Shown in pieces: positions 38,360 to 40,252 of a stretch of DNA of 64,000 nt. The stretch comes from Malus domestica. Its lineage: Eukaryota; Streptophyta; Magnoliopsida; Rosales; Rosaceae. Position 1 is the stretch's first letter. Each line of letters starts with the position of its first letter. The position numbers and the translations under genes were made by a program. The stretch covers positions 7,634,001 to 7,698,000 of the forward strand of contig NC_091671.1 of assembly GCF_042453785.1 (NCBI RefSeq). Reading direction: 5' to 3'. Under the pieces are notes generated by a model. That model ran no database searches. It had not been told where the DNA came from and saw only the letters and a list, made by a program, of their open reading frames with translations.

Positions 38360-38520
38360 TAGCTGATCATGGAGGAGATCTTGGTGCAGGTGAGTAGAGC
38401 CCAGTCCCGCGGGTCCTCCTTGAGCTTGACGAGGATATTCAGAACGACGTCGTCGGAGAGCTTCGAGAACAGGGCTTCGACTATCGGATTACTGATGCGG
38501 GCCTGCCGTGAAGGGCTCAA
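38360..38520 (-). pseudogene. Captured F-box gene fragment
   Basis: The minus-strand frame reads VEALFSKLSDDVVLNILVKL followed by KEDPRDWALLTC and CTKISS, matching the F-box of a plant F-box protein subfamily (LPDDVVLNIL...DPRNWARLACVCTK type). A short deletion removes part of the motif after LLTC. F-box proteins recruit substrates to SCF ubiquitin ligases; this is only the N-terminal domain and cannot be complete. Confidence 0.65.
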
Positions 38521-38624
38521 TATATGTGGACCCTCATCGTGACAACCAAATCCCAAATTCTCTTGCCATGAAGCAGTACTGCTGCAAAATTGGATCCTCT
38601 AGAGGTTTTGTTATTTTCAGACTG

Positions 38625-38880
38625 TCACCATCTTTGGCACCTATAAATGAAAGACTTTTCGAATAGTAGATCAATTTTACTCCGGCAGCAGTTTTGACGA
38701 GGCGAGAGCATGTGGCAAAATTGGCGGCGAGATTGTTGACGGATGTCATTTGGGCGGCGGAGGAGAAAGGCTGGACACTGAGGATAGTGCAAGCAGTGGA
38801 AGTGGCGGATGGTACAGACGACATCCGGGCAGAACGGCGAGGAAGTGACCGGGGCAAGTGAACTCAGATCTGGAACCAAC
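38625..38880 (-). pseudogene. Captured coding-like segment, source unknown
   Basis: All three minus frames are largely open across GC-rich sequence between the ubiquitin and F-box pieces. One frame reads [34 protein letters not shown]. It is probably part of another captured transcript. No family assigned. Confidence 0.35.
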
Positions 38881-38958
38881 CTTTATGTTATCGATGGTAT
38901 CCGAACTCTCGACCTCGAGAGTGATTGTCTTCCCCGTTAGGGTTTTCACGAAGATCTG
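38881..38958 (-). pseudogene. Captured ubiquitin N-terminal fragment
   Basis: The frame reads [20 protein letters not shown] then TIDNIK, residues 2-27 of ubiquitin, lacking the initiator Met and ending exactly before the AKIQDKEG block. The remaining two thirds of the domain, including the C-terminal Gly-Gly, is absent, so it cannot act as ubiquitin. Confidence 0.88.
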
Positions 38959-38965
38959 CCTGGTT

Positions 38966-39280
38966 TCAGAAATTGGGGGAAATTGGGGATTTCGGCGGCG
39001 CGAGAATGGCTCTGATCTTCAGAGGACGAAGCGGAGAAGAAGCTCGACCGTACTCTTCGATGATATTCGTCAAATCCTCGTCGGACTTTACGGCAATCAA
39101 GGTCTCTAAATCTCCGTTCGGCAATGGACACTTCAATTCCACAGAGTAGCCACAGAACTCCTTAAGCTTCTCCACTAACTCTGTACATGTAATGGAGGAA
39201 TCGACGGCGAGGACGCGGTTGTGGCCGTGATGAAGTGAGTACACGACGGGTTGCCGGATCTCCGGCGAGTATGGGACCAT
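38966..39280 (-). pseudogene. Captured PB1-domain protein fragment
   Basis: A 104-residue open frame with a PB1 fold signature: RVLAVDSSITCTELVEKL, CPLPNGDLETLIAVKSDEDL and NIIEEY (acidic OPCA-type motif). Plant PB1-domain proteins of this kind usually have a long C-terminal extension or kinase, which is missing. Flanked directly by the PEX7 piece upstream and the ubiquitin piece downstream on the same strand. Confidence 0.8.
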
Positions 39281-39433
39281 AGCGGTGTCGTAGATCTTAA
39301 CGGGGCCATCGGCGATGGCGGCGACTAGGAGGGAGTCGTGGGACTCAGACCATGCGACGTCGTATACGCCGTCGGCGGTGTCGTAGGAGACGAGCTCGGT
39401 GATTGGTTGGCGGGGTGCGCCGGGGCTCAGAGG
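39281..39433 (-). pseudogene. Captured PEX7 fragment (peroxisomal PTS2 receptor)
   Basis: The minus-strand frame reads PRQPITELVSYDTADGVYDV then AWSESHDSLLVAAIADG and VKIYDTA, which matches the first WD40 repeat of plant PEX7. PEX7 binds PTS2 cargo for import into peroxisomes; this ~50-residue piece covers one blade only. The junction with the MAP kinase piece is at about 39433 and changes frame. Confidence 0.8.
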
Positions 39434-40252
39434 AGCTGCTTAACATACTTCCTAGCATTATCACTTCTTTAAAAGACCAAGATCTGATTCATCTGGTGAA
39501 CCTAGGAGCCCATTTATAAGACTCGACTGCTGAACATAGTTTTTACCGGGAAACAGTGGTTCCCTCCTAAGAATCTCCATGACGATGCACCCTAATGACC
39601 AAATATCAATTGCTCCGGTGTATTCTGAACAGTTGAGTAGTAACTCAGGGGCTCGATACCAACGAGTTACAACATATTCTGTCATGAAATCTGTCTCTGA
39701 TGTAGTTCTTGCAAGCCCAAAGTCACAAATCTTAAGGTCACAATTTGCACTGAGAAGCAGGTTGCTTGGTTTCAGATCGCGGTGCAAAACATTTGCAGAG
39801 TGTATGTACTTCAATCCTCGCAGTAATTGATACAGGAAATATTGACAGTGATCATCTATCAAAGCCTGGCTGGAGTTTATTATCTGATTCAAGTCAGTGT
39901 CCATCAATTCATACACAATGTAAATATCATTGAACTTTTCCCTATCTGCCGGCCTTATGATGTCCTTAATTTTGATAACATTGTCATGATCCATATGGCA
40001 AAGGAGTTCTATCTCTCGAAGCGTCTTCTTCGCATCAATCCTATAGTCAAATGCATTCCCAATCTTCTTGACTGCAACTTCTTCCTTTGTCTCAGAGTTT
40101 GTTGCACAGCAAACGATGCCATAAGCACCGCGACCGACTGGGTGAATAGGAGGAGCATACTTGGCGGAGACTTCAAAGAGATTACCCAGAATGTTGTACT
40201 GTAAATACTTGCCTCCATACAGAGGAATCCCTTCTTTTTGCGAACCCTCCAT
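39434..40252 (-). pseudogene. Captured, intronless MPK13-like MAP kinase fragment
   Basis: The ATG at 40252 opens [20 protein letters not shown] and the frame runs 263 residues: P-loop GRGAYG (40-45), catalytic Lys62 (VAVKK), HRDLKPSN (157-164), DFG (177-179), activation-loop TEY (191-193), APE (201-203). A single-base frameshift after residue 261 stops translation at 39461, though [11 protein letters not shown] follows in the next frame. It most resembles group B MAPKs of the MPK13 type ([16 protein letters not shown]). Several exons are fused without introns, so it derives from a spliced transcript. The C-lobe and CD domain are missing. About 350 bp of probable 5' UTR lies upstream (40253-40600). 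Confidence 0.9.

Follow-up and report, generated by a model that had tools for sequence, protein, structure and literature searches.

Gene-carrying LTR elements and the apple locus

Pieces of host genes inside LTR elements are known from several plants. The maize element Bs1 carries pieces of three genes (proton ATPase, xylan endohydrolase and beta-1,3-glucanase), and its chimeric gene was found to be transcribed and translated, as stated in the available part of PMC13317346. The accessible portion of PMC3726574 gives 672 LTR-captured genes for rice and 1343 for sorghum, and that of PMC2774510 gives 425 maize elements with gene fragments; within this portion of the maize survey, none of the elements of this kind contained pieces of more than one host gene. 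In Retand- and Grande-type elements an antisense ORF is located between pol and the 3′ LTR (PMC7264820, available part).

The window analyzed here is a stretch of 64,000 nucleotides of the Malus domestica genome (contig NC_091671.1). Like Bs1 and the captured genes of rice, sorghum and maize, it holds host gene pieces within an LTR element, and at least two unrelated pieces lie between the LTRs, as in Bs1. It differs from Bs1 in the number of genes (six), an antisense ORF, the very recent copy and the lack of a single ORF spanning the row. The first-pass annotation had considered the combination undescribed, which agrees with our search of open-licence papers, where no apple case like this was found by title or abstract start, in part among the top-ranked entries of longer lists.

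Boundaries and class of the LTR element

Sequence comparison within the window revealed a complete minus-strand LTR element (33829-45006) that encloses the row of gene pieces. Its features outside the row are:

33824..33828, no strand: target-site duplication GTCGT, copy 1 (identical five bases at 45007-45011)
33829..34918, minus: 3′ LTR, 1090 bp, TG...CA ends, pairs with the 5′ LTR
34919..34931, minus: PPT-like stretch adjoining the 3′ LTR (position and sequence)
36763..37374, plus: additional ORF in antisense, located past the row and before the 3′ LTR (Pfam: nothing above cut-off)
40942..41817, no strand: tandem-repeat block of 37/150-base units between gag and row (repeat analysis)
41827..43629, minus: gag ORF, 600 aa, PF03732 Retrotrans_gag, E 2.4e-14, above cut-off
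43848..43865, minus: PBS-like stretch, 3 nt from the 5′ LTR (position and sequence; matching tRNA not identified)
43869..45006, minus: 5′ LTR, 1138 bp, with an extra 48-base repeat unit (LTR alignment)
45007..45011, no strand: target-site duplication GTCGT, copy 2, matching copy 1

Read in gag sense, the order is 5′ LTR, PBS-like stretch, gag, tandem repeats, MAPK, PEX7, 18 codons, PB1, ubiquitin, 119 bases, nitrilase, F-box-like piece, about 570 bases, A-rich and TA tracts, the antisense ORF on the plus strand, PPT-like stretch and 3′ LTR. Near-identical LTRs with TG...CA ends, a short target-site duplication and PBS-like and PPT-like stretches, as expected of an LTR retrotransposon, are all present. 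Aligned over 1088 bases, the LTRs show one mismatch, and the 5′ LTR has a further 48-base repeat unit. Assuming 1.3e-8 or 4e-9 substitutions per site per year, this divergence corresponds to an insertion age of about 35,000 or about 115,000 years, respectively. Most of the difference lies in an internal tandem repeat (44102-44332 versus 34112-34244) whose copies differ by one 48-base unit, so that change in the repeat has outpaced point change. We regard the element as a complete and apparently non-autonomous LTR element that transposed recently in a Malus genome.

The Ty3_capsid match of the gag ORF reaches 22.5 bits, below the cut-off of 29.1, and gag is putatively of the Ty3/gypsy type. NCBIfam gave four matches for gag, all at chance level, and a scan of IMG/VR for gag relatives yielded one pattern-matching stretch and no relative. 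The 74 ORFs of at least 60 aa within 35000-46000 define the set considered for pol, of which 29 were scanned with Pfam; none of the 29 contains the reverse transcriptase, RNase H or integrase of an autonomous Ty3/gypsy element. The first-pass annotation had placed pieces of several host genes within a gag-only LTR element, and an open gag reading frame together with the lack of a pol domain in the scanned ORFs bears this out.

The antisense ORF (36763-37374, plus strand) begins with MSGPSD, and an AATAAA stretch lies downstream of it within the element. In location it resembles aORF-3R in the available part of PMC7264820, which likewise places such an ORF downstream of the internal genes and ahead of the 3′ LTR in Retand, Grande and RIRE2. 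The likeness is one of ORF placement: here pol was not found and the row stands in its place. Since the Retand/Grande layout runs from pol over the antisense ORF to the 3′ LTR, the row seems to fill the position normally held by pol.

Several other features were observed in the window. A copia-type element on the plus strand (27578-32484) has 214-bp LTR-like repeats that are 99.5% identical. One ORF of 964 aa encodes its gag, integrase and SH3-like domains and a second ORF encodes RVT_2; reverse transcriptase might conceivably be supplied by this element. Copia-type remains with RVT_2 and GAG-pre-integrase in separate ORFs are found at 54792-57498 (minus strand), and an ORF at 62165-62869 (plus strand) contains one C2H2 zinc finger slightly under the Pfam cut-off.

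Identity of the gene pieces

The window was compared with 13 chosen proteins, with further alignments to 10, chosen out of 301. The row consists of:

39433..40252, minus: kinase piece of MAPK13/NTF6 type, covering parent residues 1 to ~273, with the frame changing near 39466 (protein comparison)
39281..39436, minus: PEX7 piece, parent residues 49-100, 51/55 identical to Malus P0155
39227..39280, minus: 18 codons between PEX7 and PB1, common to Malus P0001 (protein comparison)
38975..39226, minus: PB1-domain piece, parent residues 34-119, two residues missing (Pfam and protein comparison)
38881..38961, minus: ubiquitin piece, ~26 residues, start-codon position reads R (PF00240 26.1 bits, cut-off 25.4; PDB match)
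38762..38880, minus: stretch of 119 bases between ubiquitin and nitrilase, no Pfam match in the ORFs across it
38540..38761, minus: N-terminal piece of nitrilase-like protein 2 (deaminated glutathione amidase; protein comparison)
38341..38517, minus: F-box-like piece with 11 upstream codons, common to Malus P0159 (48/59)
37770..38340, minus: stretch of ~570 bases after the F-box piece, no Pfam match in 7 ORFs on both strands

Six host genes are recognisable, namely a MAPK13/NTF6-type kinase, PEX7, a PB1 protein, ubiquitin, nitrilase-like protein 2 and, more weakly, an F-box gene, where the first-pass annotation had counted at least five. All pieces (6/6) lie on the minus strand in the single orientation of gag. 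Against the 13 proteins, the E-values were 3e-172 for MAPK, 3.5e-28 for PEX7, 4.7e-48 for PB1, 5e-32 for nitrilase and 2e-26 for the F-box piece (Malus P0159). Chance matches are ruled out by these values. Protein, Pfam and PDB matches bear out the MAPK (263 codons), PEX7, PB1 and ubiquitin (about 26 residues) that the first-pass annotation had read on the minus strand in gag sense.

The MAPK ORF runs for 263 codons from 40252 and is identical to Malus P0182 at 249 of 262 residues without a gap. Parent residues 1-262 are in frame; the homology exits the frame near 39466 and resumes in another frame to 39433, on to about residue 273 (Pyrus P0183 residues 258-273, E 0.009). The TEY motif is intact and the C-terminal quarter of the protein is absent. 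The search scored the 8000 candidates with the most shared words, and among the best 120 of 6390 matches the best-scoring relatives with a specific name were MAPK13 and NTF6; the closest solved structure is a MAPK4. NCBIfam gave remote kinase matches for the MAPK piece and none for the other four proteins besides gag. PEX7 homology starts at 39436 (best solved match yeast Pex7, E 2e-5), and the proposed MAPK/PEX7 junction at 39433 with a frame change was thereby confirmed.

The PB1 piece is identical to full-length Malus P0002 at 81 of 84 residues, and the PB1 region is 98% identical to Malus domestica P0001 among the best 120 of 218 matches. This value and the MAPK identity to P0182 place the host in Malus or very near it. 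The piece formerly left unassigned was found to be the N-terminal part of nitrilase-like protein 2 (57/74 to Prunus P0121; NitFhit structure match, E 2e-4). No nitrilase labelled Malus occurs among the 61 proteins listed, and the comparison was made with Prunus and Rubus; P0123 represents 46 sequences, among which a Malus one may be found.

The F-box reading was sustained in part. The piece is shared with Malus P0159, whose match to F-box-like (E 0.006) does not reach the curated cut-off. The label is weak: the window ORF has no Pfam match at E 0.1, a PDB search gave nothing below E 0.2, and no full-length F-box parent occurs among the 61 proteins listed. An assignment to EID1 is conceivable and is not claimed here. 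The pieces also abut only in part, because 39227-39280, 38762-38880 and 37770-38340 lie between or after them without an assigned gene; Pfam gave no host gene in the ORFs across 37770-38340 and 40182-40577. The sequence at and above 40253 may be MAPK 5′ UTR.

Evidence on a possible origin from spliced mRNA

Woodland strawberry MAPK13 falls in group B, a set of genes with 6 exons separated by 5 introns (PMC5451138, available part). The MAPK piece is continuous where these group B relatives have introns, a comparison made through strawberry MAPK13. For nitrilase, four residues distinguish Prunus P0121 from P0133 (given as isoform X1), and the window piece continues unbroken at this position; in these separate records the difference is probably best read as a splice-site variant. 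A reverse-transcribed origin is supported for MAPK and nitrilase, and position and orientation would extend it to the other four. The claim that the row is intronless is accordingly upheld, through relatives, for two of the six pieces.

By our reading of the six pieces, MAPK, ubiquitin and F-box seem to begin upstream of their start codons, as would be expected if the enzyme ran to the 5′ end of an mRNA before jumping. The MAPK-PEX7 joint is compatible with about 5 shared bases, judged by codon reading alone, and no A-run of at least 9 bases occurs between the pieces. According to the published model, microsimilarities allow LTR elements to change from one template to packaged mRNAs, perhaps several times over (PMC5408686; see also PMC13317346; available parts). 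The anatomy of the locus fits this model in its single orientation, two intron-free pieces, absence of A-runs between pieces and the pol that was not found.

Helitrons and Pack-MULEs are active in the capture of gene fragments (PMC13317346, PMC2774510; available parts), and such DNA-level capture could have been followed by landing in the element. Inverted pairs of at least 40 bases, as terminal inverted repeats of a Pack-MULE, were not found around the row, where the longest inverted match outside TA repeats is 8 nt (shuffle mean 8.4), and the MAPK and nitrilase pieces are without introns. On these two grounds capture by a DNA transposon is disfavoured and appears highly improbable. The three inverted pairs of this size in the window are located at 47.6-48.9 kb; these repeats (47608-48883), 46-116 nt long with 76-83% complementarity and a spacing of about 1 kb, are possibly a foldback or MITE-like element.

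A-rich and TA tracts at the edges of the row

Blocks of A-rich sequence and TA repeats flank the row at about 40728-40775 and 37641-37704, and an A-run of 28 bases in gag sense (37769-37742) lies downstream of it. Such edges could point to a row that arose elsewhere as a chimeric processed retrocopy of the LINE type, with template jumps and poly-A, entered an A/TA-rich tract of an ancestral LTR element a single time and travelled with it thereafter. Five A-runs were tested for a matching stretch upstream of MAPK, excluding the run at 40775. For the A-run at 37704, the TA stretch that follows it agrees at 12 of 12 positions, which none of 300 single-base shuffles reached; such shuffles do not preserve repeats, so that a microsatellite match is weak evidence. 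The other four were at chance: 8/12 at 37769 (242/300 shuffles as good), 37604 (237/300) and 37504 (245/300), and 9/12 at 37409 (128/300). Of the marks of a LINE-type retrocopy, A-runs are thus present and just one of the five, a TA-repeat match, exceeds the shuffles.

Over broader flanks, TA repeats make up the longest matches, with 17 bases for the direct and 18 bases for the inverted one. Without the TA tracts, the longest direct match is likewise 8 bases, close to the mean of 8.9 in 60 shuffles, the number that also underlies the inverted value given above. The search for a later insertion with its own target-site duplication, which the first-pass annotation had put forward as the outcome that would speak against it, gave no clean duplication and a TA-repeat match at both sides. 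Overall, a single retrocopy insertion is considered unlikely; in view of the TA matches, the row may nevertheless have entered as one unit.

Age and spread of the row

Of the 262 MAPK residues compared, 13 are not those of P0182. Residue 128 of the piece agrees with Pyrus P0183, so at most 12 of these differences look new. Compared with one difference in 1088 bases between the LTRs, the row looks much older than the present insertion. The row accordingly appears to be older than the insertion; the protein collection was clustered at 90%, which may hide closer MAPK or PB1 paralogues, and a closer MAPK paralogue would weaken this conclusion. From the greater age we infer that the RNA template of the latest transposition contained the row.

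Related chimeras were found among gene predictions of this clustered collection (P0001, P0003, P0004, P0011 and P0159). P0001 (Malus, 3 contigs) contains the 18 codons, PB1 and the tail as in the window (102/104) and may be the same locus in another assembly. P0003 (12 contigs) and P0004 (4 contigs; 75/77) carry the PB1 piece with different neighbours. P0001, P0003 and P0004 have two window residues that are absent from P0002 and Pyrus P0005, and these common residues could come from a host paralogue and not from joint capture. P0159, a Malus domestica protein of 160 residues (11 contigs), has the F-box piece and the same 11 upstream codons after other sequence, and at its beginning shows a resemblance to an ABC transporter that stays below the cut-off (E 0.003). 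In P0011 (M. baccata), PB1 is joined to a stretch resembling this LTR (E 2e-9, obtained without low-complexity filtering).

Judged from these predicted proteins, the occurrence of the PB1 or F-box piece in other Malus chimeras speaks more for a row assembled step by step or reshuffled than for one event. The row could even have arisen by stepwise recombination among elements of one family that each carried one or two pieces, with few or no multiple switches in one particle. PB1 and F-box pieces with other neighbours in P0003, P0004 and P0159 and the LTR-like sequence in P0011 speak for this. As gene predictions, however, these may be wrong models or LTR insertions in a gene; the LTR match is repeat-rich and paralogues may be hidden, and recombination of this kind as the main route seems quite unlikely.

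Proposed origin and meaning

We favor, at a probability of roughly two in three, a gag-only, helper-dependent element whose ancestors took up pieces of host mRNAs through template switching. RNA of the ancestral element would have been packaged along with host mRNAs in virus-like particles, where the reverse transcriptase of a helper would jump between templates. Later rounds of switching, or recombination among relatives, would build and reshuffle the row, and the element would spread with helper enzymes. For the row as a whole, no protein function is expected.

Acutely transforming retroviruses keep gag, have pol replaced by host cDNA and require a helper. The helper-dependent spread proposed here may be likened to that of such defective viruses: gag is likewise kept and a helper needed, and the pieces of the apple element are many, short and mostly broken.

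Tentatively, and with less confidence than even odds, a Malus LTR family might act as an exon shuffler at the RNA level, in which reverse transcriptase chains spliced mRNAs, often to their 5′ ends, and modules are exchanged, so that PB1 and F-box pieces recur. With six genes in one young element and pieces that recur in predicted proteins, recurrent template switching or the exchange of modules would be directly measurable at the junctions of sibling elements.
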